Shown here: one piece after another, positions 6,774 through 22,827 of the stretch | Numbering within the stretch: the stretch's first letter is position 1 | Layout of the letters: each line of letters opens with the position of its first letter | From: an uncultured Alphaproteobacteria bacterium | GTDB taxonomy: Bacteria > Pseudomonadota > Alphaproteobacteria > RF32 > CAG-239 | Direction: 5' to 3' | Assembly (NCBI GenBank): GCA_944393665.1 | Contig: CALYAX010000003.1 | Location: 1-64,000, forward strand | DNA: 64,000 bases | Notes under the pieces: model-generated | Told to the model about the DNA's origin: nothing | Seen by the model: only the letters and a program-made list of their open reading frames with translations | The model's database searches: none | Position numbers and translations under genes: made by a program

Positions 6774-6802
6774 TTGCTTTTTCGATTAAAAAACACTAAT
6801 TT
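6774..6802 (+). promoter_or_regulatory. Possible sigma-70 promoter of the suf operon
   Basis: TTGCTT at 6774-6779, a 17-bp spacer, and TAATTT at 6797-6802, 22 bp before the sufB start. I saw no obvious IscR- or Fur-type box. Confidence 0.4.
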
Positions 6803-6824
6803 TAGGACAGGAAAAAGGAAAACA

Positions 6825-8282
6825 ATGAATAAGAGCAGTCACACTCAGCCGCAGGTTATTGACGAGAGCGGCGATAAATATAAATACGGTTTTGTAACCG
6901 CCATCGAGGCCGATACCGCTCCCAAAGGGCTGAATCCCGATATAATCCGCTTTATCTCTGCCAAAAAAGGCGAACCGGATTGGCTGTTGGAATGGCGGCT
7001 CAAAGCGCTGGAGTTTTGGCAGGGCATGACTGAACCCGCCTGGGCTAAGCTGTCTTATGATAAAATCGGCTATCAGGATTTATACTACTATTCTGCCCCC
7101 AGGCAGAAGGCAGCACCCAAAAGCCTTGACGAGGTTGATCCCGAACTGCTCTCCACTTATGAAAAACTCGGTATCCCGCTTAAAGAGCAGGAAATGCTTG
7201 CCGGCGTGGTCGCTGTTGATGCTGTTTTCGATTCGGTTTCGGTTGCCACGACTTATCGTGCCAGACTGGCTGAACAAGGGATCATTTTCTGTTCAATTTC
7301 AGAAGCGGTTAAGGAGCATCCCGATCTGGTGAAACAATATTTGGGCTCAGTCGTTCCATATACCGATAATTTCTTTGCCTGCCTGAATTCCGCTGTTTTC
7401 ACCGACGGTTCGTTTGTCTATATCCCCAAGGGCGTTCGCTGCCCGATGGAATTGTCAACTTATTTCCGGATTAATGCCAAAAACACCGGACAATTCGAGC
7501 GCACCCTGATTATTGCCGATGAGGGCAGTTATGTTTCTTATCTGGAAGGCTGCACCGCGCCGCAGCGCGATGAAAACCAGCTTCATGCCGCAATTGTTGA
7601 AATTGTGGTTTTAAAAGATGCCGAGGTCAAATATTCCACGGTGCAGAACTGGTATCCCGGTGATAAAGACGGCAAGGGCGGCGTCTATAATTTTGTAACC
7701 AAGCGGGCGGCCTGCCGCGGCGCAAACGCCAAAATCTCGTGGACGCAGGTTGAAACCGGCTCGGCCGTCACCTGGAAATATCCTTCCTGCGTGCTGCAGG
7801 GCGATAATTCTTCCGGCGAATTTTATTCTGTTGCCATCACCAACAACCGCCAGCAGGCCGATACCGGAACCAAGATGATCCACATCGGCAAAAACACCAC
7901 GTCGAAAATCATTTCCAAGGGGATATCCGCCGGTTTTTCCAACCAGACTTACCGCGGATTGGTTAAAGTAGCGCCCGGAGCCTGCGGCGTGCGCAACTAT
8001 TCCCAGTGCGACAGTCTGCTGATTGGTGAAAACTGCGGCTCACATACGGTGCCTTATATTGAAAACCGTAATAAAACCGCCCGTATCGAACATGAGGCAA
8101 CCACTTCCAAAATCAGCGACGAGCAGTTGTTTTACTGTTTGCAGCGCGGTATTTCCGAAGAGGAGGCGGTCAGCCTGATTGTCAATGGTTTTTGCAAAGA
8201 GGTAATGCAGCACCTGCCGCTTGAGTTTGCCATCGAGGCGGCGAAACTGATAAATATTTCACTTGAAGGGAGTGTCGGCTGA
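6825..8282 (+). CDS. sufB: Fe-S cluster assembly scaffold subunit SufB
   Basis: SufB forms the SufBC2D complex on which Fe-S clusters are built. The 485-residue product has the family's usual length and motifs: [60 protein letters not shown] and [13 protein letters not shown] near the C-terminus, with the conserved Cys residues. The frame is open further upstream, but ATG at 6825 has AAAGGAAAA just before it and starts at the conserved region. The stop TGA overlaps the ATG of the next gene by one base, so translation is probably coupled. Confidence 0.97.
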
Positions 8283-8566
8283 TGATTGATCCGATTTTAA
8301 AACGCGCGCTGGAAACCTGGGGCGAAAAGGCACAAATGCTTATGGTTGTTGAAGAAATGTCCGAACTGATGAAAGAAATACTGAAAAATATTTCGCGCGG
8401 CAAAGATAATCTTGCAGAAATTATTGAAGAAACCGCCGACGTGGAAATTATGCTTGAACAGCTGAAAGCCAATTATGATATTGAAGAAAAAGTGGCGGTT
8501 TACAAAGCCGGTAAAATAAAAATGATTGAACAAAGATTAAACGACTGGGATAAGAAAAGCGCTTAG
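8282..8566 (+). CDS. Small MazG-like nucleotide pyrophosphohydrolase
   Basis: This 94-residue all-alpha protein shows the MazG/phage-NTPase pattern: EEMSELMKEILK (ExxE first half of the metal site) and EEIIEETADVEIMLEQL-like spacing with EETAD (second half, ExxD). MazG-type enzymes cut NTPs to NMP and pyrophosphate. It begins at the last base of the sufB stop and ends 9 bp before sufC, so it is embedded in the suf operon. That is not a standard place for this family, and its link to Fe-S assembly is unknown. Substrate cannot be told from sequence. Confidence 0.8.
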   Translation: MIDPILKRALETWGEKAQMLMVVEEMSELMKEILKNISRGKDNLAEIIEETADVEIMLEQLKANYDIEEKVAVYKAGKIKMIEQRLNDWDKKSA

Positions 8567-8575
8567 GAAAAAAAG

Positions 8576-9334
8576 ATGACGATACCGCTGTTAGAAATTG
8601 AAGATTTGTCCGCCCGGGTTTGCGATAAGGAAATTATCAAAGGCTTTAACCTCACCATCAATGAAGGCGAGGTTCATGCCGTTATGGGACCAAACGGAGC
8701 CGGAAAATCGACCCTGTCTTATGTCCTTTGCGGCAAGCCCGGTTATGAAGTGACCGGCGGTTCCGTCTGGTTTAAGGGAAAAAATCTGCTGGCAATGAGC
8801 CCGGAAGAACGCGCCCGCGAAGGCATTTTTTTATGTATGCAGTATCCGGTGGAAATCCCCGGCGTTCCGGTAACCACCTTTTTAAAACATGCCGTTAATG
8901 CCGTCCGGGCCCATCAAAACCTGCCGGAGCTGGATACGATGAATTTTATTAAACTGGTGCGTGAAGAAGGCAAGAAACTGGGGCTTGATGCTGAGATGAT
9001 AAAACGTCCGGTTAACGTTGGTTTTTCCGGCGGCGAAAAGAAACGGCTCGAAACGCTCCAGATGTCCGTTTTGAAACCAATGCTGTCTATTCTCGACGAA
9101 GCCGATTCGGGATTGGACATTGATGCGCTCAAAGTTGTAGCCGACGGGGTAAACGCCCTCCGCGACGGCCGGCGTTCCATGTTGGTCATCACCCATTATC
9201 AGCGGCTGCTCAATTATATTGTGCCGGACTATGTTCATGTTTTTGCCGACGGGCATATTGTTAAATCCGGAGATAAAAGTCTGGCGCTGGAGCTGGAAGA
9301 AACCGGCTATGCCGGGTTTATAAAGGAAAAATAG
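8576..9334 (+). CDS. sufC: Fe-S cluster assembly ATPase SufC
   Basis: SufC is the ABC-type ATPase of the SufBCD scaffold. The 252-residue product has Walker A GPNGAGKST (about residues 37-45), the Q loop around FLCMQYPVEIPGVP, the ABC signature FSGGEKKR, Walker B LSILDEADSGLD and the switch His in VITHYQRLL. The YPVEIPGV motif is specific to SufC. It lies between the MazG-like gene and sufD, two bases before sufD. Confidence 0.98.
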   Translation: MTIPLLEIEDLSARVCDKEIIKGFNLTINEGEVHAVMGPNGAGKSTLSYVLCGKPGYEVTGGSVWFKGKNLLAMSPEERAREGIFLCMQYPVEIPGVPVTTFLKHAVNAVRAHQNLPELDTMNFIKLVREEGKKLGLDAEMIKRPVNVGFSGGEKKRLETLQMSVLKPMLSILDEADSGLDIDALKVVADGVNALRDGRRSMLVITHYQRLLNYIVPDYVHVFADGHIVKSGDKSLALELEETGYAGFIKEK

Positions 9335-9336
9335 CC

Positions 9337-10581
9337 ATGGCCGGACTGGTTCAAAACATTCCCCTTATCGGGGCGGAAATTCCCTGGTTGCGCCAGCTGC
9401 GCGAAGCCGGAATCCGCGCCTTTGAAAACAGCGGGATTCCCACAGCCAAAACCGAGGCCTGGAAATATACCAAACCGCGCGATTTAAATGCAAATGATTA
9501 TATCATGGACAGTCGCGGGGAAACAGTGACCCCCGGGCATTTTTCACTTCCTTTCGACGGTTATCGGATTCATTTTGAGAACGGTATTTTTGATCCGGAA
9601 CAGACGGAACTGCCGCAGGGGGTTGAGGTTTTGCCGCTGGCCGAGGCGCTTTTGCTTCGCGGCGAAACCCGCGGTTATCTGGGCCGGCTGGTGGATTTGA
9701 AACGTCATCCTTTTGCCGCCCTCAACACCGGTTATCTTAATGAGGGGGTGTTTATCCGCGTTGAAAAAAACGTTGATCTCAAAAAGCCCCTGATTCTGAT
9801 TAACCATACCGACAGCTGCGGCCGCAATCTCTTTTTCAATCTGCGTCATCTGCTGATTTTGGAAGAGGGGGCATCGGCTGAATTTGTGGAAATTTACCAT
9901 TACGGCGGCGAGGTTAAATCACGCTATTTTGCCAATATTGTGACTGAAGCTTTCTTGGCGCCGAAAGCGCGCCTGCAGCACTATAAATATCAGGCCGAGG
10001 CTTTTAAGGCCAATCATATTGCTCTTACTGCAGTTGATATTGAGACCGCCGCGGAATATCAGGCTTTTACCCTGCAAAAAGGCGCCAATATCGCCCGTAA
10101 TGAAACCCGGGTGAGCCTGCGCCGCGAACAGGCCCGCGCTGAGGTCAATGCCGCTTATTTGATGAACGGCTGGGCAACGATTGATACCACCACGGATATT
10201 GAACATCTGGCTCCCTGTACCTTCTCAGATCAGCTGGTCAAAGGTGTGGTCGGCGGAGATGCCAAAGGCGTTTTTCAGGGTAAAATCCATATTGCCCCCC
10301 ATGCTGTTAAAACCGGGGGGCGCCAGCTGCATAAAGCCTTGCTGTTGTCTGACACCGCAGAAATTGACGTCAAACCCGAACTGGAAATTTTTGCCGACGA
10401 TGTCAAATGTTCTCACGGGGCTGCCAGCGGAGAATTGGACGAAGAGGCTTTGTTTTATATGCGCTCGCGGGGGATTGGCGGGGAGGAAGCACGCCGCCTG
10501 CTGATTGACGCCTATCTTGAAGATGTTATTGCCAAAGTGCCGGATCCCCGGATTCGCGCCTGGTTTGAGGAACTGAAATAA
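9337..10581 (+). CDS. sufD: Fe-S cluster assembly subunit SufD
   Basis: SufD pairs with SufB in the SufBC2D complex. The 414-residue product begins with the helical region containing PTAKTEAWKYTKPRDL, a SufD N-terminal signature, then the beta-helix core. It ends with FADDVKCSHGAASGELDEEALFYMRSRGI, the conserved SufD C-terminal stretch with the His thought to help bind the nascent cluster. The gene starts 2 bp after sufC. An 81-bp gap containing a short GTTGA/TCAAC hairpin separates it from sufS. Confidence 0.97.
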   Translation: MAGLVQNIPLIGAEIPWLRQLREAGIRAFENSGIPTAKTEAWKYTKPRDLNANDYIMDSRGETVTPGHFSLPFDGYRIHFENGIFDPEQTELPQGVEVLPLAEALLLRGETRGYLGRLVDLKRHPFAALNTGYLNEGVFIRVEKNVDLKKPLILINHTDSCGRNLFFNLRHLLILEEGASAEFVEIYHYGGEVKSRYFANIVTEAFLAPKARLQHYKYQAEAFKANHIALTAVDIETAAEYQAFTLQKGANIARNETRVSLRREQARAEVNAAYLMNGWATIDTTTDIEHLAPCTFSDQLVKGVVGGDAKGVFQGKIHIAPHAVKTGGRQLHKALLLSDTAEIDVKPELEIFADDVKCSHGAASGELDEEALFYMRSRGIGGEEARRLLIDAYLEDVIAKVPDPRIRAWFEELK

Positions 10582-10662
10582 CCAAGAGTATAGTTGAAGG
10601 TCAACCTCCGGCAGAATAGATAAATAGATAGGCAGAAAAGGCGTCAGAGAAAGAGTGAAAAG

Positions 10663-11880
10663 ATGTATGATGTAGAACAAATACGCAAAGATTTTCCGGT
10701 GCTGGGTGTCGAGATTAACGGCAAACCCAATACTTTTTTAGACTCCGGCGCTTCGGCTCAAAAGCCGCAGGCGGTAATTGACCGTATTGTTCAGGCTTAC
10801 AGCAGGGAGTATTCCAATGTCCACCGCGGTTCTTATCAGCTTTCTGAGGAAATGACTTCCGATTATGAACGCGCCCGCGGCACTGTCGCCCGGTTTTTGA
10901 ATGCTAAAAGTGCCAAGGAAATTGTTTTCACCCGCAATGCGACAGAAGCAATCAATCTGGTTGCTTCCACCTGGGGACGCAAGTTTTTAACCAGGATTGA
11001 CGAGGTTTTGATTTCCGAAGCGGAACATCATGCCAATCTGGTTCCCTGGCAGGTGCTGCGCGATGAAATCGGTTTTGAACTGAAGATTTTTAAAATTAAT
11101 GATGACGGCAGTTTTAATTGGGATGAATACTGCAAAAATTTAAGCGGCAAAACCAAATTAGTGGCCGTCACCGGAATGTCTAATGTTTTGGGAACGGTTT
11201 TTCCGCTCAAAAAAATGATTCAGTCAGCTCATGAGGTCGGCGCCAAGGTTTTGGTAGACGGCTGCCAGTATGTCGTGCATCAAAAAACTGACGTTCAGGA
11301 GTGTGACTGTGACTTTTTGGCTTTTTCCGGGCATAAAACTTATGGCCCGACCGGAATCGGTGTCCTGTACGGCAAAGCTGAACTGCTTGATGCCATGCCG
11401 CCGTATCAGTTTGGCGGTGATATGGTGAATGTCGTCACTTATCAGACCACCACGTTTGATGTTCCCCCGGCACGTTTTGAGGCCGGAACCCCGGCGATTG
11501 TTCAGGCCGTCGGCTTAGGCGCCGCGCTGGACTATATGATGAATTTGGGAATGGACGATATTAATGCCCATGAAAACGAGCTGGTAGATTATATGCACGC
11601 GCGCCTGCCGGAAATTCAGGGGCTCCGCGAAGTCGGGACCGCGCCCGGCAAAGGCGGTGTTTTTTCTTTTGCCATTGACGGTATACATCCGCAGGACCTG
11701 GCTTTTGTGCTGGATAAAGAGGGCATTGCCGTCCGTGTCGGTCATCATTGCGCCGCGCCGCTGGTTCGCCGGATGGGGTATGAGTCTTTGGCCCGCGCCA
11801 GTTTCGGGCTTTATACCAATCATGCCGATATAGACCGTTTTATCGAGGCTCTCCACAAAGCCCAGAGCTTTTTCAGTTAA
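10663..11880 (+). CDS. sufS: Cysteine desulfurase SufS
   Basis: SufS is a PLP enzyme that takes sulfur from cysteine and hands it to SufE or a scaffold as a persulfide. The 405-residue product is a group II desulfurase. It shows SNVHRGSYQLSEEMT near the N-terminus, EHHANLVPWQ, the PLP lysine in FSGHKTYGPTGIGVLYGK, and the catalytic Cys in VRVGHHCAAPLVRRMG. A Shine-Dalgarno-like GAGAAAGAGTG precedes the ATG. Its persulfide acceptor SufE is encoded about 2 kb downstream in a separate operon. Confidence 0.97.
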   Translation: MYDVEQIRKDFPVLGVEINGKPNTFLDSGASAQKPQAVIDRIVQAYSREYSNVHRGSYQLSEEMTSDYERARGTVARFLNAKSAKEIVFTRNATEAINLVASTWGRKFLTRIDEVLISEAEHHANLVPWQVLRDEIGFELKIFKINDDGSFNWDEYCKNLSGKTKLVAVTGMSNVLGTVFPLKKMIQSAHEVGAKVLVDGCQYVVHQKTDVQECDCDFLAFSGHKTYGPTGIGVLYGKAELLDAMPPYQFGGDMVNVVTYQTTTFDVPPARFEAGTPAIVQAVGLGAALDYMMNLGMDDINAHENELVDYMHARLPEIQGLREVGTAPGKGGVFSFAIDGIHPQDLAFVLDKEGIAVRVGHHCAAPLVRRMGYESLARASFGLYTNHADIDRFIEALHKAQSFFS

Positions 11881-11894
11881 AGGAACTATTCATA

Positions 11895-12341
11895 ATGACC
11901 GCAGATTCGAAAGACGATATTTTAACCCCTTCCGAGGCGCAGCTTTTGGGAGCCATGGGGCTGGTGGATAATCCCAATCCTTTGCCGGCGGATTTTACCG
12001 CCTATGCCGGGACAAAATTAGACCCTGCCGAAAAAAAACGGGCAACCCGCGAGCAGATTATAGAAGCGCTGAAAACCGTTTCTGACCCGGAGATTATGAT
12101 TAATATCTGGGATTTGGGGCTGATTTATAAAATAGTTCAGGAAGATGACGGCAGTGTCAAAATTGAAATGACCGTCACCGCGCCGACTTGCCCGGTAGCG
12201 GGGATCTTACCGCAGCAGGCAGCCGATGCTGTTTCCAAATTGGACGGCGTGGGTGTCGTGGAAGTAAAAATTGTCTGGGAACCGGCGTGGACGATTGAAA
12301 ACCTCTCCGATGAAGCCCGGGAAATGATTGAACTTTTCTAG
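11895..12341 (+). CDS. sufT: MIP18/DUF59-family Fe-S assembly protein SufT
   Basis: The 148-residue product has a variable N-terminus and a C-terminal MIP18 (DUF59) domain: TVSDPEIMINIWDLGLIYKI, then MTVTAPTCPVAGILPQQ with the conserved Cys of the family, and VEVKIVWEPAWTIENLSDEAR. In suf operons this protein is called SufT and supports maturation of certain Fe-S proteins. It starts 14 bp after sufS with AAAGGAAC upstream, and is the last gene of the suf operon. Confidence 0.9.
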   Translation: MTADSKDDILTPSEAQLLGAMGLVDNPNPLPADFTAYAGTKLDPAEKKRATREQIIEALKTVSDPEIMINIWDLGLIYKIVQEDDGSVKIEMTVTAPTCPVAGILPQQAADAVSKLDGVGVVEVKIVWEPAWTIENLSDEAREMIELF

Positions 12342-12376: not shown

Positions 12377-13066
12377 CTAAATTTTGCCGCTCAGGGTGGC
12401 CAGGAGCGCAGGACGGACTTCCTCCCAGATCCGGGCCAGATCTTCATCGCTCCGGGCACCGGGAGTTTCCAGGGTTACCAGCGGAATTTGCCGTTCAACG
12501 CCCGCCCAGGTTCCAAAAGAGCCGGTGCAGGGATAACCCACATTTTCCACTAATTTATAGCCGGTCAGTTTGGCAATTTCAGCCGCCCAGTCATGAGCCG
12601 GGCCGTCATAATCCACCAGATGCAGGTCTGAGTGAATGCTTAATATCCGCGCCGGTTCATAAAGCGCCGTCAGCGCCATCATCAATTGGGTTTCAATTTC
12701 CGATCCCGGTTTTCCCGCAGAGGCTTTACCGCTGTGCGGATTAACGCTTTCCGGACTGAAATTGGCCGTGGGATAATTGCGGTTAAGATCAATTTTGTTG
12801 GCATTTTCCCGGGTATTCAGCTCTTTGCCGTCGGGATTCAAACAGGGAACCAGCAAAAGGTTGTAAAGGATTTCTCCGGCTGTTCCGGCCCGGAGTTCTT
12901 CCATCAGCCGCCTGATAAGATATTCGCCTTCCGGTTCATCGCCGTGAAATCGTCCCAGGAGAAACAGCCAGGCGTTTTCTTCTCCGGCAAGATACTCCCA
13001 AACGGCAATTTCGTGTCCGCGCGGGCTGTTCAGGCTTTTGACCTTATTGAGAACGTTGGGCAGCAT
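12377..13066 (-). CDS. M14 zinc carboxypeptidase, murein peptide amidase (MpaA) type
   Basis: The protein carries the M14 metallopeptidase set: GRFHGDEPEGE (zinc ligands His and Glu), CLNPDGKELNTREN, KIDLNRNYPTANF, the third zinc ligand in LSIHSDLH, and the catalytic Glu in LVTLETPGA. NPHSGKASAGKPGSEIETQ and GYPCTGSFGTWAG resemble MpaA, which removes meso-diaminopimelate from the tripeptide L-Ala-D-Glu-mDAP during cell-wall recycling; that specificity is inferred. The frame is open to 13273, but the upstream part overlaps the acetyltransferase gene, so I place the start at the ATG at 13066. That gives 229 residues and a 23-bp overlap with the upstream gene. The local ribosome binding site is weak, which suggests translational coupling. 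Confidence 0.82.
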   Translation of the reverse strand: MLPNVLNKVKSLNSPRGHEIAVWEYLAGEENAWLFLLGRFHGDEPEGEYLIRRLMEELRAGTAGEILYNLLLVPCLNPDGKELNTRENANKIDLNRNYPTANFSPESVNPHSGKASAGKPGSEIETQLMMALTALYEPARILSIHSDLHLVDYDGPAHDWAAEIAKLTGYKLVENVGYPCTGSFGTWAGVERQIPLVTLETPGARSDEDLARIWEEVRPALLATLSGKI

Positions 13067-13781
13067 GGGCCAGCAGGGCTCCGGTAATTTTTGAAACAGC
13101 GCGGTTTTTAACCTTTTCAGCCTGTTTAAGGGCATTATCGACAGTGGTATGTGCAATTTTAACATCACTGAGGCAGAATTCAGCCCGTCCTTTCGGCGAG
13201 GTGACCACATGGTCAAAATCTTTGGTGCGGGCAAAAGCCTTAAATCCCAGGGTCTGGTAAAATTTTTCGGCATTGTGGTTATGAGCGTTATATTCCAGAA
13301 TCAGACTGTCAAATCCGCGCTTTTTCAGCTGTGGCAGCGTGTGTTCCAGCAAATAGGTTCCGACATTTTGGCGCTGAATTTGCGGATCCAGATACAGCTG
13401 GTTGATAATCAGGGTTTTATCATTCAGCCGGATATCTTTGTCAAAAGTAACTTTGCGTTCCCAGGCAAAGGTATAACCGTCCATTTCTCCGCTTTCGCGT
13501 TCTGAGGTCTGGCCGTTTACCGGGTGTTTATAATATTCGGGAATAGGGCTCAGCCGCATAAAGCCCATCGGCACGCCGTCAGCCAGAACCACAACAGTTC
13601 GGGAGTTTTTATCTGCGGCAAACCGCTGCAATTTGCTAACAAACACATCGCGGGTGTACAAAGCCATTTCTGCCGGGCTTTTATAACCGCGTGACAATTC
13701 GTTGTAGGAACGCTGATAAGCCCGGGCCAGCGGCACAATCATTTCATTTGTATTTTCTAACGGAACAATCTTCAATTTCAT
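13044..13781 (-). CDS. GNAT-family N-acetyltransferase
   Basis: The 245-residue product has a GNAT core: strand 4 and motif A in LIINQLYLDPQIQRQNVGTYLLEHTL with the acetyl-CoA loop QRQNVG, followed by LILEYNAHNHNAEKFYQTLGFKAF, the motif B N-A-xx-F-Y-xx-x-GF pattern. The C-terminal 60 residues are Ala/Lys-rich and not conserved in the family. The substrate is unknown. It overlaps the start of the MpaA-like gene downstream. The divergent neighbour is sufE. Confidence 0.85.
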   Translation of the reverse strand: MKLKIVPLENTNEMIVPLARAYQRSYNELSRGYKSPAEMALYTRDVFVSKLQRFAADKNSRTVVVLADGVPMGFMRLSPIPEYYKHPVNGQTSERESGEMDGYTFAWERKVTFDKDIRLNDKTLIINQLYLDPQIQRQNVGTYLLEHTLPQLKKRGFDSLILEYNAHNHNAEKFYQTLGFKAFARTKDFDHVVTSPKGRAEFCLSDVKIAHTTVDNALKQAEKVKNRAVSKITGALLAHAAQRSQ

Positions 13782-13928: not shown

Positions 13929-14330
13929 ATGATGGATATTGAAGAATTAACCGAAAATTTTGAGCTGCTGGACAATTGGGAAGATCGCTACCGCTATATA
14001 ATTGAGCTGGGCGAACAGCTGGAACCGCTTCCTGAAGAATTCCGTGCCGGGGAATGGAAGGTTAAAGGCTGCCAGTCGCAGGTCTGGCTGGTGCCGCAAA
14101 AACGGGACGGAAAAATTTATTTCAGCGGTGACAGCGATGCCATGATTGTCAAAGGCCTGATTGCCATTACTTTAATGATTTATTCCGGCAAAACGGCGGC
14201 AGAAATAAAAGCTGTCGATGTCGAAACGGTTTTCGGGCGCCTCAAACTGCAGGAACATCTTAGTCCCAGCCGCCGCAACGGGCTGCTGGCCATGACCGAT
14301 AAAATCAAATTTTATGCCGGCATTCTCTGA
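13929..14330 (+). CDS. sufE: Sulfur acceptor protein SufE
   Basis: SufE takes persulfide sulfur from SufS and carries it to SufB. The 133-residue product has the full family pattern: ENFELLDNWEDRYRYIIELG, then LPEEFR, VKGCQSQVWLVP with the acceptor Cys, GDSDAMIVKGLIAIT, and FGRLKLQEHLSPSRRNGLLAM. TGAGGC lies upstream. The adjacent ATG at 13932 is an alternative start. It is the first gene of an operon with the SucC/SucD-like pair and comF rather than part of the main suf operon. Confidence 0.96.
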   Translation: MMDIEELTENFELLDNWEDRYRYIIELGEQLEPLPEEFRAGEWKVKGCQSQVWLVPQKRDGKIYFSGDSDAMIVKGLIAITLMIYSGKTAAEIKAVDVETVFGRLKLQEHLSPSRRNGLLAMTDKIKFYAGIL

Positions 14331-14343
14331 GAAGGAAACAGGA

Positions 14344-15549
14344 ATGAATATTCACGAGTACCAGGCCAAAAAAATCCTCAGCCAGTACGGAATCAAAATT
14401 CCCAGGGGCGGCGTTGCCTATACCCCGATGGAAGCCAAGCGGGTGGCTGCCCGCTGTTCTTTGCGCGGTCCCTGGGTATTGAAGGCTCAGATTCAGTCCG
14501 GCGCCCGCAATCAGGGATATTTTTTAGAGAAGAAAGCCGGTAAAAAAGGCGGTATCCGGCTGATTAAAAGCCGTCGTGAGATAGTCAGGCAGGCAGAGCA
14601 AATGCTGGGGTCAACGTTGGTGACCGTTCAGACCGGCCCCAAGGGCAAGCTTGTCAGCCGTTTGTATGTTGAAGCTTTTACCAAGGTGGAAAGCCTGTTT
14701 TATACCGGCCTGGCCATTGACCGTGTTAATTCGGCGCTTACGCTGCTGGTGGCTCCTATCGGGGCTGATGAAGAAATTACCCAGCTTGCGGTGACCGCCC
14801 CGGATAAAATTTTGAAAATCCGCCTTGATCTGGAAGGCGAGGTATCTCCTCAACAGGTTCAAGAAGCTATGGAGTTTTTAAAACTGCCTCCCAAAAGTGC
14901 CAAAAGCCTGGAAACCTTTATCAATGGCCTGCACCGCGTCTTTATAGACTATGATGCCACCATGATAGAAACGAACCCCGTCGGGGTTATGAAAAACGGC
15001 GAAGTCGTGGCGCTGGATGCTAAAATTTCTTTTGATGATAATGCTTTGTACCGCCATCAGGATATTCAGCGTCTGCAAGATGAATATGAGGAGAGCGACC
15101 GCGAACTTCAGGCCTCCAAATTCAAATTTAATTACTCGGAGTTTGACGGTTCCATCGGCTGCATCGTCAACGGGGACGGTTTGGCGCTGGCGGCTTTGGA
15201 CCTTCTAAATGCCAAAAATACCGGTATGGCTTGTTTCTTAAACGTTAAAGGCGGTGTGGATAAAGATAAAATCGCCTCCGGTATCAAGATTATCATGACC
15301 AACCCGCGGGTTGAGGGGATTTTAATCAACATTCTTGGTGGTTTTCTGCGCTGTAATTTGATTGCGGACGGTATTATTGCCGCCGCTTCGGAGGTGGGGC
15401 TTAATGTTCCGCTGGTGGTCCGGTTTGAGGGAACCAACAAAGATGAAGCCCGGGAGATTTTGGAAAACTCCCATTTGCCGATTATTCTGGCTGATACCAT
15501 GCAGGACGCGGTCGATAAGCTGGTCACCGCAGTAGAGGAGAGCGACTGA
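14344..15549 (+). CDS. Divergent succinyl-CoA ligase beta-subunit homologue (SucC-like)
   Basis: The 401-residue product is clearly related to SucC: MNIHEYQAKKILSQYGI, an ATP-grasp domain, then IETNPVGVMKNGEVVALDAK with the conserved metal-site Glu/Asn/Asp, and a C-terminal CoA-ligase domain with LINILGGFLRCNLIADGI. The insertion after the first nucleotide loop (YFLEKKAGKKGGIRL) is the longer form seen in alphaproteobacterial SucC. Several signature positions differ: HAGGRGK reads QSGARNQ, and FLDVGGGA reads FLNVKGGV. Together with its altered partner this suggests it is not the housekeeping enzyme. The ATG at 14344 with GAGAAGGAAAC upstream is chosen over an earlier one inside sufE. Its stop overlaps the next ATG by one base. 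Confidence 0.85.
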   Translation: MNIHEYQAKKILSQYGIKIPRGGVAYTPMEAKRVAARCSLRGPWVLKAQIQSGARNQGYFLEKKAGKKGGIRLIKSRREIVRQAEQMLGSTLVTVQTGPKGKLVSRLYVEAFTKVESLFYTGLAIDRVNSALTLLVAPIGADEEITQLAVTAPDKILKIRLDLEGEVSPQQVQEAMEFLKLPPKSAKSLETFINGLHRVFIDYDATMIETNPVGVMKNGEVVALDAKISFDDNALYRHQDIQRLQDEYEESDRELQASKFKFNYSEFDGSIGCIVNGDGLALAALDLLNAKNTGMACFLNVKGGVDKDKIASGIKIIMTNPRVEGILINILGGFLRCNLIADGIIAAASEVGLNVPLVVRFEGTNKDEAREILENSHLPIILADTMQDAVDKLVTAVEESD

Positions 15550-16421
15550 TGTCTATTTTTGTGAATAAGGAAACCCGCGTTGTCTGTCAGGGAATTACCG
15601 GTACTCAGGCCACGTTTCATGTCCGCCGCTCCATAGATTACGGCACCAAATTTGTCAGCGGCGTCACTCCGGGCAAAGGCGGGGAAATGCATCTCGGTCT
15701 GCCGGTGTTTAATACGGTTAAAGAAGCTAAAGAAGCCACCGCGGCCAATGCCAGCGTAATGTATGTGCCGGCACCTTATGTTAAAAATGCCGTCCGCGAA
15801 GCTGTCGAGGCCGAGCTGGATCTTGCCGTTTGCATCGCCGACAGCGTACCGATAAAGGATATGCTGGAGATTAAGGCCATTTTAGCGGGAGCAAAAACCC
15901 GCCTGATCGGGCCCAATACCCCCGGAATTATTACGCCGGGACAGGCGCGGCTGGGCATTTTTCCTGAAAATATCCATACGCCGGGGCATGTCGGGATTAT
16001 TTCCCGCTCATCAACCCTGACCTATGAGGCTGTGCTTGAAACCCGTCTGGCCGGGCAGGGGCAGTCTACCGTCATCGGGTTGGGCGATGATATGCTGATA
16101 GGCATTGACTTTGTCGAGGCGCTGGAACGTTTTCAAAATGATGATGAAACCAGGGCGATTGTGCTGATCGGACAAGTCGGCGGAACCTTTGAAGAAGTTG
16201 CCGCCCGTTATTATAAAAACTGCGCCAATAAAAAGCCTGTTATCGGTTTTATTGCCGGCAATGCGGTGCCTTTCGGACATAAAATGGGATATGCCGGCGA
16301 TATCATAACCAATGGTCATATCACCGCGCAGGATAAAAAAGATGCCTTTGCCGATGCCGGTATCATTGTTGTTGATAAAATTAACGATATTCACGCCAAA
16401 TTGGCCGAAGTTATGGGGTAG
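15549..16421 (+). CDS. Divergent succinyl-CoA ligase alpha-subunit homologue (SucD-like), phosphohistidine replaced
   Basis: The 290-residue product aligns over its whole length with SucD: VVCQGITGTQATFH, YGTKFVSGVTPGKGGEMHLGLPVFNTV, MYVPAPYVKNAV and GIISRSSTLTYEAVLET are all in place. Three key positions are not. GPNCPG (Cys123 of E. coli, at the CoA site) is GPNTPG (Thr124). GEIGG (Glu208, which contacts the phosphohistidine) is GQVGG (Gln209). MGHAG (His246, the phosphorylated residue) is MGYAG (Tyr248, codon 16290-16292). A His at residue 244 is nearby. Normal succinyl-CoA ligase chemistry is therefore doubtful; a changed reaction, a regulatory role or a binding role are possible. Translation is coupled to the beta homologue by a one-base overlap. 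Confidence 0.87.
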   Translation: MSIFVNKETRVVCQGITGTQATFHVRRSIDYGTKFVSGVTPGKGGEMHLGLPVFNTVKEAKEATAANASVMYVPAPYVKNAVREAVEAELDLAVCIADSVPIKDMLEIKAILAGAKTRLIGPNTPGIITPGQARLGIFPENIHTPGHVGIISRSSTLTYEAVLETRLAGQGQSTVIGLGDDMLIGIDFVEALERFQNDDETRAIVLIGQVGGTFEEVAARYYKNCANKKPVIGFIAGNAVPFGHKMGYAGDIITNGHITAQDKKDAFADAGIIVVDKINDIHAKLAEVMG

Positions 16422-16422
16422 A

Positions 16423-17139
16423 ATGTCCGTTTGGTCGGAAATCATTAACTGGATTTTGCCGCCGCGTTGTTTAAAATGCGGTAAAGTTCTCTCCGAAGAT
16501 ACCGGTTTGTGCCAAAGTTGTCTGGACAGTTTCAATTTTATCTCCGGAGCTTATTGCAAAAAATGCGGCTTTCCGCTGGAAAATGTTGAAAATAATCACC
16601 GCCTGCTCTGCGCCGGCTGCCTGCGTGCAAAACGCTCGCCTTTCCGGCTCAGCCGCTCGGCCTGTGTTTATGACGAAGCTTCCAAATCCCTGATCCTTGA
16701 TTTCAAATTTCGGGATAAAACCGATAATGCCGGGATTTTGGCCCGCATGATGCTGGTGGCCGGCCGCGATATTTGGGAAAAGGGTGTTGATGTTATGATT
16801 CCGGTGCCGCTTCATTACACCCGCATATTGAAAAGGCGGTTTAACCAGTCGGCGCTTCTTGCCAAAGAAATTAATAAACTTAATGGAATCCCGGTTGATT
16901 TCGGCTCTCTCGGGCGCCGTCGCAAAACCCGCCCGCAGGTGGAGTTTTCCGGCCATGAACGGATAAACAACGTTAAAGGCGCTTTTATCGTTAAAAATCC
17001 GGCCCGGATCAAAGGAAAACGGATTTTATTGCTTGATGATGTCATGACAACCGGATCAACATTGAAAGAATGTGCCCTGGCTCTTAAACGTGCCGGCGCT
17101 AAATCAGTTGATACCTTAACCATTGCCAGGGTTGTTTAA
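16423..17139 (+). CDS. comF: ComF-family phosphoribosyltransferase-like protein
   Basis: The 238-residue product has the ComF layout: an N-terminal zinc-finger part with paired Cys (CLKCGKVL, CQSC, CKKCGFPL, CAGC) and a C-terminal phosphoribosyltransferase fold with RFNQSALLAKEI, RRKTRPQVEFSGHER and the PRPP-binding loop ILLLDDVMTTGSTLKE. ComF is needed for natural DNA uptake in several bacteria, but homologues (GntX) occur widely and the role here is open. I use the ATG at 16423, 2 bp after the SucD-like stop, rather than the longer frame that starts inside that gene. Confidence 0.92.
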   Translation: MSVWSEIINWILPPRCLKCGKVLSEDTGLCQSCLDSFNFISGAYCKKCGFPLENVENNHRLLCAGCLRAKRSPFRLSRSACVYDEASKSLILDFKFRDKTDNAGILARMMLVAGRDIWEKGVDVMIPVPLHYTRILKRRFNQSALLAKEINKLNGIPVDFGSLGRRRKTRPQVEFSGHERINNVKGAFIVKNPARIKGKRILLLDDVMTTGSTLKECALALKRAGAKSVDTLTIARVV

Positions 17140-17229: not shown

Positions 17230-18321
17230 ATGTCGTTAGAAAATGAATTAAAAGAAATGGGATTCGATCGGGACAGCTTTATGGTTTTTCGCCAAGATAC
17301 TTCTGTCATACAAGGTTCTGAAAAAAGAGAAGTTTTTGAAAAGGGGAGTCTTGAAGAGTTTATAAAGAGTCGTGAAGAGTTTATAAAAGAGATGCGCGAT
17401 GACAAAGGAAACAAACGTCTCGGTGTTTTAGGGGCGAATAATGGTTATTATGCGGCTTATGACGGTATAGATTACATTGTGACCGCTGACAAAGAGATTT
17501 ATGAAAAACTTAAATCTTCAAAAGGGTTTGCAGATAAGGGTATTAGCGTCATTGGTTCTAACCATGAACAGTTTGGGTCTGATTATGATAATAAAACCTT
17601 TAACAAAATGGTTGCCACTTGTAAGGAAGTCGAAAAGCAACGCGGGAAACAAAAACAAAGCGGGATAATTCTGGAAAATCAGAAAGATCTTAAAGACGCT
17701 AAAGTTGATCTGTCCTATTTGGAGAGCGTTAAAAGCAGGATAGAAGAAAAAATAAAAGGGAATGAAGCATTCGGTGAAAGCTGGACAGGTTTCCTTAAGG
17801 CTAATGCTGAATATGTTGAATACTGCCATAAGCAGGGTAAGAAGCCTAAAGATGTTCTGCCTTATGTAACAAACCTTTTGGAAAATGCGGCAAGGAGAGA
17901 TAAAAGCGGCCTCCCCAATCCTCTGGAGCAAAAACCAGGATTTTTTAAACGTATGTTTTCTAAAAAAGATAAAGAGGAAGAAAAAAAGTTAGAAACATTG
18001 CGGCAGGAATTGCAGAAAGTGCAATCCGTTGCTTTGAAAAATCCAGACATAGTCAAAGATTGTCTGAGTGCTGTAGAAAAAGGAAAATCCATACCGGCAG
18101 AGATGGCAAAATCAGTTTTTGCCAAGGCAAAGGAATATGCTTCTGATAAAGAAAATGCTGCCAATGATATTAAACGAAAAAAAGCTTATCTGGGAGAGCA
18201 GGTCCACAAACTTATTGAACTTCGAAAAACGGGACACGAGCAGTCTTCGCAAAAAAGCGCCGGCAAACCGCGTCAGATGTCGCTGTCAGTCGCGATGACT
18301 CATAAAAATCTCAGTCGTTAA
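17230..18321 (+). CDS. Orphan Lys/Glu-rich coiled-coil protein
   Basis: I do not recognise this 363-residue protein. It has no signal peptide or membrane helix. Residues 1-115 may be a small globular domain (GVLGANNGYYAAYDGIDYIVTADKEIYEKL). Residues 130-180 and 240-330 are highly charged and helical, with a basic patch FFKRMFSKKDKEEEKK around residue 240. The C-terminus ends with a Ser/Gln-rich tail. It has its own strong ribosome binding site (GGAGGAAAA), a likely promoter and a terminator, so it is a single-gene unit. Its composition is more A/T-rich than its neighbours, which may point to recent acquisition. Confidence 0.75.
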   Translation: MSLENELKEMGFDRDSFMVFRQDTSVIQGSEKREVFEKGSLEEFIKSREEFIKEMRDDKGNKRLGVLGANNGYYAAYDGIDYIVTADKEIYEKLKSSKGFADKGISVIGSNHEQFGSDYDNKTFNKMVATCKEVEKQRGKQKQSGIILENQKDLKDAKVDLSYLESVKSRIEEKIKGNEAFGESWTGFLKANAEYVEYCHKQGKKPKDVLPYVTNLLENAARRDKSGLPNPLEQKPGFFKRMFSKKDKEEEKKLETLRQELQKVQSVALKNPDIVKDCLSAVEKGKSIPAEMAKSVFAKAKEYASDKENAANDIKRKKAYLGEQVHKLIELRKTGHEQSSQKSAGKPRQMSLSVAMTHKNLSR

Positions 18322-21706: not shown

Positions 21707-21882
21707 AAAATATTCGGCTTTGCCGTTCGAGAGGTAACATACAGAATCATTTTTCAAAATGCAAGCATATTTTTTTAATTTATAAACTTTTTTTGTAAAT
21801 GCTTTGCAACAAAATTTTATTTTAAATTCTGCTTTCCGGAGATTACATTGTGAAAGATGACATTTCTCAAAGGAGAAGAAAA

Positions 21883-22827
21883 ATGAAAGTTGGAATTATC
21901 GGAGCCGGACTGGTCGGATCCACCACGGCATATACACTGGCTATCGAGGGAACTGCAAATGAAATAATTTTGGTAGATGTTAACAAACAGCGTGCCGAGG
22001 CCGAAGCTGATGACATCACCCATGCAACGGCTTTTAAACAGGATTGCACCATTATGAACGGCGATTATCCGGATCTTTCCGGCGCCCATATCGTGATTAT
22101 AACGGCTGACGGCGCGCCGAATTTCAATAACTCGCGGCTTGAACTGGTTGATAACAATACCAAGATGTTTGAAAGTATTATTCCCAATTTGGTCAGATAT
22201 GCGCCTGAGGCGATTATAATTGTCACCACCAATCCTGTTGATGTCATGACAATGGTTGCTTTGCATTTGTCCGGTTTTCCCAGGTCACGGGTTATCGGTT
22301 CCGGAACCGTTTTGGATACCGCGCGTTTTCGTTCTCTGCTTGGCCAGTATCTGGGGATTTCTCCCAAATCTCTTCATGGTGTTGTCGTGGGCGAACATGG
22401 AGATTCGGCGGTAGTTTCCTGGTCGACTGCCTGTGTCGGGGCAATGTGCATTGATGAGTTTGCCGGAGTGATGGACCGCCCGCTTACCCCGGAGATTAAA
22501 TCCCAAATTGCTGCCGATGTCGTCCAGATTGCTTATCGGATATATCATGGCAAAAAAGCCACTTACTATGGAATTGCCGGGGCTTTGAGCACAATCTGCA
22601 AAGCCATCGCTAAAGATGAAAAACGCGTGTTGACGGTCAGCTCTTTTCACCAGAATGTAGAAGGGCTGCAAGATGTCTGCCTTTCTCTTCCCGCGGTCAT
22701 CGGCCGTCAGGGCGTTCTCAAAACCATGCTCCCGCACTTATCAACCCCGGAAATGCAGCAATTACAAAAGAGTGCCGAAGTTCTTTGCGAGGTTCAGAAA
22801 AAAGCTTGCGGAATTCTGAAGAACTGA
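21883..22827 (+). CDS. L-lactate/malate dehydrogenase family protein with atypical substrate loop
   Basis: The 314-residue product is an LDH/MDH-type NAD enzyme: Rossmann motif GIIGAGLVGSTTAY, NAD-binding Asp in ILVDVN, Asn117 in VTTNPVD, the Asp145-xx-Arg148 pair in LDTARFR, the proton-relay His172 in GEHGDSAVVSWS, and ATYYGIAGALSTICKAI as in LDH. The mobile specificity loop is unusual. Where LDH has AGxxQKPGETR and MDH has Arg, this protein reads ADGAPNFNNSR, with Pro79 at the discriminating position; the following Arg85 is kept. Its substrate may be another 2-oxo acid. The ATG at 21883 follows AAAGGAGAAG; an ATG at 21850 upstream is less likely. Confidence 0.85.
   Translation: MKVGIIGAGLVGSTTAYTLAIEGTANEIILVDVNKQRAEAEADDITHATAFKQDCTIMNGDYPDLSGAHIVIITADGAPNFNNSRLELVDNNTKMFESIIPNLVRYAPEAIIIVTTNPVDVMTMVALHLSGFPRSRVIGSGTVLDTARFRSLLGQYLGISPKSLHGVVVGEHGDSAVVSWSTACVGAMCIDEFAGVMDRPLTPEIKSQIAADVVQIAYRIYHGKKATYYGIAGALSTICKAIAKDEKRVLTVSSFHQNVEGLQDVCLSLPAVIGRQGVLKTMLPHLSTPEMQQLQKSAEVLCEVQKKACGILKN

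Follow-up and report, generated by a model that had tools for sequence, protein, structure and literature searches.

A SucC/SucD-like gene pair without the phosphohistidine, conserved beside sufE across an order of Alphaproteobacteria

The stretch of alphaproteobacterial DNA considered here, 64,000 nucleotides in all and called the window below, carries two overlapping genes whose products resemble SucC and SucD, the beta and alpha subunits of succinyl-CoA ligase (SCS), with tyrosine at the site of the alpha phosphohistidine. Judged from its residues, the pair almost certainly does not act as a succinyl-CoA ligase through the known mechanism, and a conserved new function can be assigned to it nearly as firmly. 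The best single guess is that this function belongs to SufE and sulfur transfer in the SUF system, a reading that draws on gene order and on the presence of a single SufE. The original prediction of a changed reaction or a non-catalytic role is supported by the family-wide loss of the histidine, by selection on both genes, by a single origin and by the absence of a second sucCD from the genome.

The locus and its genes

The sucC-like gene (14344-15549, plus strand) encodes a beta subunit of 401 amino acids with an ATP-grasp domain and a flavodoxin-like CoA-ligase domain, assigned by PRK00696 and by its SCS-beta fold, and the sucD-like gene (15549-16421, plus strand), which overlaps it at tgATG, encodes an alpha subunit of 290 amino acids without the phosphohistidine, assigned by TIGR01019 and by comparison of its fold with the alpha chain of 1JKJ. 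Upstream of the pair, across a gap of 13 bases, lies sufE (13929-14330, plus strand; PF02657, 155.8 bits), whose product of 133 amino acids, the sulfur acceptor of SufS, keeps the cysteine motif CQSQVW. Further upstream, on the same strand, a SUF operon recognised by NCBIfam matches extends over 6774-12341, with sufB (6774-8282), sufC, sufD, sufS and a sufT-like gene (11895-12341) in an order that is kept in most relatives. The pair is followed in the same direction by a comFC-like gene (16423-17139, plus strand; PF18912 and PF00156), with 16423 as its likely start and the longest frame running from 16312; it is regarded as a neighbour, and no membership of a complex is claimed for it. A scan of the locus for promoters and terminators gave matches at chance level.

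Some features of the region are peculiar to the window or to part of its relatives. The stretch between sufE and the sufT-like gene holds, on the minus strand (12377-13781), a gene resembling M14-type carboxypeptidases and a GNAT gene, both of which occur at this place in some relatives only (for example loci L045, L046, L054, L065, L078 and L082). A Pat-type acetyltransferase formed with the GNAT gene (13044-13781) was considered and rejected, since that gene is missing from most relatives' loci and is thus no fixed partner. Directly after comFC, an open frame of 363 amino acids (17230-18321) has no Pfam match and is absent at that place from the relatives' loci compared.

Lost and retained residues

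The alpha subunit was predicted to carry Thr, Gln and Tyr at the sites of Cys123, Glu208 and His246, and both coordinates and codons agree: Thr124 (15918-15920), Gln209 (16173-16175) and Tyr248 (TAT, 16290-16292), all on the plus strand. Among 148 sucD homologues, read in 147 genomes that belong to the same order as the window and span at least 17 genera, none has His246; the position is Tyr in 130, Leu in 14, Ile in 3 and Phe in 1, with Leu, Ile or Phe in genus g3. Glu208, which we take to be the residue that pairs with the phosphohistidine in SCS, is present in 2 of the 148, and at the third site Thr is found in 145 of the 147 genes with a residue there and Cys in one, from the sister family. 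All three residues are kept in 50 of 50 distinct outgroup alphas, a set skewed by 27 loci from a genome-contig scan, mostly Pelagibacteraceae, as well as in three more (L184-L186); the distinct loci among the best 28 non-family loci of a 58-genome class sample (49 genomes matched at E <= 1e-10) all have Cys, Glu and His. Given a histidine count of 0 in 148 in the family and the full set in 50 of 50 outgroup sequences, the substitutions reflect neither chance nor sequencing error.

In locus L134 (genome G079) the swinging loop is mostly deleted, and in a monomer model of the window's alpha subunit pLDDT falls below 50 exactly at 239-255, the loop holding position 248. SCS superfamily chemistry passes through this swinging-loop histidine, and in the known SCS mechanism the His loop bridges two sites about 30 A apart (PMC11494057); in DddX, a member of the superfamily, the H292A change is reported to abolish activity (PMC8163506). 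On these grounds the known mechanism is almost certainly excluded for the pair. The replacement of Cys123 by Thr is the least telling of the three changes, because it arose last and because a structure of the C123T mutant of the E. coli enzyme has been solved (2NU8).

The predicted change of the beta nucleotide loop from HAGGRGK to QSGARNQ (from 14494, with GARN at 14500) is present, and so are the metal-site Glu and Asn that had been called retained: Glu209, Asn211 and Asp225 of the window's beta subunit are E197, N199 and D213 of E. coli, and the Mg and phosphate residues of the ATP-grasp core are all kept. Across the family K46 and R54 are found in 142 of 142 genes each, E197 and D213 in 144 of 144, N199 in 140 of 144, and E99 is the same in every gene that covers the position (142 to 144 genes). 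In four related genes (L059, L068, L072 and L074) Asn199, presumably a Mg ligand in SCS, is Thr, and the other ATP-grasp core residues stay. E107 (kept in 1 of 143) and G53 (2 of 142) have gone, and H50 and the GGRG loop are lost as well; E107, H50 and the loop help to hold the nucleotide, the roles of E107 and E197 being our assignment from E. coli SCS. With K46, R54, E99, E197, N199 and D213 kept, the beta subunit probably retains Mg-nucleotide binding. Compared with E. coli, the nucleotide loop and its surroundings have about 10 extra residues, and this length was discarded as a mark of the family when some canonical outgroups (L154, L172) proved to share it.

On the alpha side, K42 and E97, which we assume to be the CoA contacts of E. 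coli SCS, have drifted: K42 is kept in 107 of 146 genes, among them the window's gene and its nearest relatives, and E97 in 2 of the 146 with a residue. Given this drift, CoA may no longer be an obligatory ligand. The residues that we take to form the SCS substrate site are kept, alpha Y158 in 146 of 147 and beta N264 in 144 of 144.

New fixed residues and selection

The family has also acquired residues of its own. In the alpha subunit, Asp180 (16086-16088; Gly179 in E. coli) is Asp in all 148 family genes and Gly in 50 of 50 outgroup sequences; Ser155 (16011-16013; Gly154), within SRSGTLTYE, is Ser in 146 of the 147 with a residue and Gly in 50 of 50; and Asp251 (16299-16301; Ala249), three places after the lost histidine, is Asp or Glu in 144 of 147 with a residue and Ala in 50 of 50, while Gly20, invariant in the outgroup, is Ala in 146 of 146. 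In the beta subunit, sequence comparison places CFLNVK (15232-15249) at NFLDVG of E. coli (285-290), which brings in Cys297, Asn300 and Lys302; across the family N285 is Cys in 143 of 144, D288 is Asn in 143 of 144 and G290 is Lys or Arg in 144 of 144, against N, D and G in 54 of 54 outgroup sequences. GGFLRCN (15337-15357) stands for GGIVRCD (320-326), with Phe334 for Ile322 (all 143 family genes with a residue there have Phe, all 54 outgroup sequences Ile), and position 266 is Asp or Glu in most family genes. All of these codons lie on the plus strand. By motif the new residues belong to the CoA loop (G20), SRSGTLTYE, the loops GIGGDP and LDVGGGA, NIFGGI and the stretch directly past the lost histidine. 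Going by E. coli motif positions and SCS structures, they would surround the pocket at the subunit interface that once received the phosphohistidine. New polar residues fixed in every genome point to a new function and not to decay.

The genes had been described as selected and not decayed, and the median dN/dS values, about 0.03 for the pair, agree: 0.033 for sucC and 0.031 for sucD, below the 0.056 of both sufE and sufS, with 0.055 for comFC and 0.040 for sufT (27-75 pairs per gene, which are non-independent, loci L001-L030 and L031-L083 being partly from the same genomes). Both genes are under strong purifying selection with no decay. A partial rate correlation of 0.78 between sucC and sucD over 68 loci demonstrates that alpha and beta are still partners. 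Over the same loci the correlation of sufE with sucC (0.08) and with sucD (0.10) is weak, permutations reaching it in 47 and 28 of 500 cases, and that of the known pair sufE-sufS is 0.33.

Distribution and order of events

A sucD-like match is present in 146 of 152 genomes of the window's family and in one sister-family genome of the order. SufE was looked for in two of the six family genomes that lack a match: G031 is without both genes and G145 has a SufE at a contig edge, and in either case the absence can plausibly be put down to a gap in the assembly. Genome G085 has two of the 148 genes, as two complete clusters of sufE and the pair (L124, L125) in one bin; the contigs of L124 and of L058, in another bin, both measure 35,510, and one of the copies may be contamination.

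In a tree of 64 rows, with bootstrap not fully settled, the family forms one clade (100/100) on a stem of 0.57 changes per site. The sister-family locus L131 (G152, the only genome of that family) keeps Cys123 and already has Gln208, Tyr246, Ala20, Ser154, Asp179 and Lys290, so that the families parted after the histidine and glutamate had been lost and the new residues gained, and Cys gave way to Thr afterwards. At this locus the beta gene is interrupted by a run of N, and its FGGI motif reads LAGY, which makes the F322 position Tyr. A search of 385 genomes of the class was run at E <= 1e-102, stricter than the 1e-86 to 1e-99 at which divergent true members of the family score, and it thus leaves room for relatives without the histidine elsewhere.

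Metabolic setting and the sufE neighbourhood

The window's genome (1.74 Mb, 42 contigs, scored 100% complete) was searched for a second, canonical sucCD; there is none, nor another SucD-like gene or SCS-like domain, and the pair is its sole sucCD. The match to the E1 dehydrogenases covers 65 residues of a 585-residue frame, so that no PDH or OGDH E1 of this kind was found there, and no DapD scores above the cut-off. Citrate synthase is found in 0 of 8 genomes of the order and in 13 of 14 control genomes, the C-terminal domain of SDH/FRD in 0 of 8 and 11 of 14, and a pyruvate:ferredoxin-type oxidoreductase in 8 of 8 and 10 of 14. With citrate synthase, SDH, OGDH and DapD not found, there is no visible TCA need for a succinyl-CoA ligase. 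An L-lactate dehydrogenase gene in the window (21850-22827; TIGR01771, 338.5 against 303.55 bits) fits a fermentative life style. The family includes Azospirillum sp. CAG:239 (locus L047), which one study describes as devoid of every terminal oxidase and hence as a strict anaerobe (PMC6431628).

The association with sufE is close to universal. Of 148 loci, 142 have sufE, sucC and sucD side by side, and the remaining six are cut off by a contig end. The three genes are closely spaced in 141 of these 142; in L131, the exception, the distance measures larger because of an N-filled gap within the beta gene. sufE is near the genes in 0 of 55 outgroup loci, of which 28 class loci span only about 1.5 kb per side. 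Exactly one SufE was found in 11 of 12 genomes searched, the window's SufE being the sole one found in its genome, and of 86 SufE sequences from the family at least 98% have Cys48. In 10 of 93 loci, two of which seem to be one contig, sufS and the genes around it lie downstream in inverted orientation, and sufE remains with the pair. The sufE adjacency alone is no proof of a link, since comFC, for which we know of no tie to Fe-S assembly, directly follows sucD in 91 of 93 loci.

Comparison with known systems

Both subunits pass the NCBIfam cut-offs for SucCD, the alpha with TIGR01019 (371.9 against 353.2 bits) and PRK05678 (371.7 against 336) and the beta with PRK00696 (405.4 against 370) and TIGR01016 (382.5 against 375.55). 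With E. coli SCS (1JKJ/2SCU) the pair shares the two-subunit operon, the ATP-grasp Mg and phosphate residues and the folds: as monomer models, the alpha matches 1JKJ alpha at Z 43.1 (rmsd 1.5, 282 aligned residues) and the beta gives Z 38-40 over 385-393 residues, with an rmsd of about 13 that reflects domain orientation. Unlike SucCD, it has no phosphohistidine, has nearly lost Glu208, has Thr for Cys123, drifting CoA contacts and new fixed residues, and sits in an operon with sufE, with TCA partners not found.

Loss of the catalytic histidine from a retained SCS-superfamily domain is known from Pat (PMC8556138); Pat/PatZ-type acetyltransferases carry a GNAT domain on the same chain, whereas here there are two separate SucC/SucD-type subunits, in neither of which Pfam finds a GNAT domain. 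FdrA/AllF, of the oxamic transcarbamylase AllFGH, is reported to be SCS-like with no SCS activity and a different reaction (PMC8550087, PMC11326118), but the pair differs from it in score (PRK06091, 33.7 against a cut-off of 433 bits) and in operon. Malate-CoA ligase (MtkAB) is likewise a SucCD-type two-subunit ligase, from which the beta subunit is set apart by PRK14046 (364.4 against 604 bits), as the alpha subunit is from that of ADP-forming acetyl-CoA synthetase (ACD) by TIGR02717 (69.2 against 567.15 bits).

Possible functions

We tentatively favour, at somewhat less than an even chance, a repurposed SCS-like alpha/beta complex that has lost the phosphohistidine relay and taken on a new role with SufE in the SUF system. 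The relay would have been lost on the stem of the order, in anaerobes without use for the TCA step, and the complex then fixed in its new role in SUF sulfur transfer and Fe-S assembly, where the nucleotide-binding pair would bind or regulate SufE, or the SufS-SufE step, with no covalent phosphoryl transfer by a swinging loop. A far more specific form of this reading, which we consider improbable, is a hitherto unrecognised, nucleotide-driven factor for Fe-S and sulfur trafficking, with Mg-ATP at beta and SufE at the remodelled alpha/beta pocket (D179, K290, C285 and D/E249), in which the mobile persulfide loop of SufE would replace the swinging loop and ATP would gate or activate sulfur transfer.

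One plausible rival, itself rather unlikely, is a non-catalytic sensor or scaffold resembling Pat, whose loss of the histidine together with a sensing role offers a precedent (PMC8556138); the loss of His246 and near loss of Glu208 would suit it, and the former phosphate site could be permanently occupied by the new acidic residues and the Lys close to it, but invariant K46, R54, E99, E197 and D213 exceed the needs of a pure scaffold, the CoA contacts drift (K42 in 107 of 146, E97 in 2 of 146) and a GNAT domain is lacking in both subunits. Unlikely too, and a little more so, is an ATP-grasp ligase, kinase or transferase whose substrate is an unrelated metabolite and whose direct chemistry needs no phosphohistidine, sufE being an operon hitch-hiker. 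The retained ATP-grasp core, alpha Y158 and beta N264, the retention of comFC as well and the weak covariation with sufE are all compatible with such an enzyme, for which FdrA/AllF as part of oxamic transcarbamylase is a precedent (PMC8550087, PMC11326118); it accounts poorly for sufE remaining with the pair where sufBCDS leaves, and the conserved neighbourhood holds no pathway gene for such a metabolite.

That the pair is still a succinyl-CoA or other acyl-CoA ligase, forming the acyl phosphate without recourse to the histidine, seems a slim prospect. The SucC and SucD cut-offs are passed, the substrate-site residues are kept and K42 is present in the window's gene and nearest relatives; yet in the known mechanism the His loop bridges sites some 30 A apart (PMC11494057), E97 is lost nearly everywhere and K42 in about a quarter, and neither OGDH and DapD in the window's genome nor citrate synthase and SDH in the sampled genomes were found. 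Decay, assembly error or a strain-specific mutation might be suspected where most named relatives are metagenome-assembled genomes, but the same state in 147 genomes and 17 genera, with dN/dS of about 0.03, makes this hardly credible.

Significance

Superfamily proteins without the histidine (Pat) and an SCS-like protein with another reaction (FdrA/AllF) are already on record (PMC8556138, PMC8550087, PMC11326118). In the open-licence literature searched, no description was found of a SucC/SucD pair that is linked to SufE or lacks the histidine, nor of a stand-alone pair of this kind across a whole order linked to sufE. As the NCBIfam cut-offs are passed, automatic pipelines would label the pair a succinate-CoA ligase, and this mislabelling would credit a large group of gut bacteria with a TCA step for which they lack the known mechanism. 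The family offers a clean natural case in which an enzyme of central metabolism lost its catalytic residue once and was re-fixed with a new set of residues across at least 17 genera, and an intermediate stage is preserved in the sister family, where the Cys is still present. If the link to SufE is functional, the pair would be a new component of the SUF pathway.
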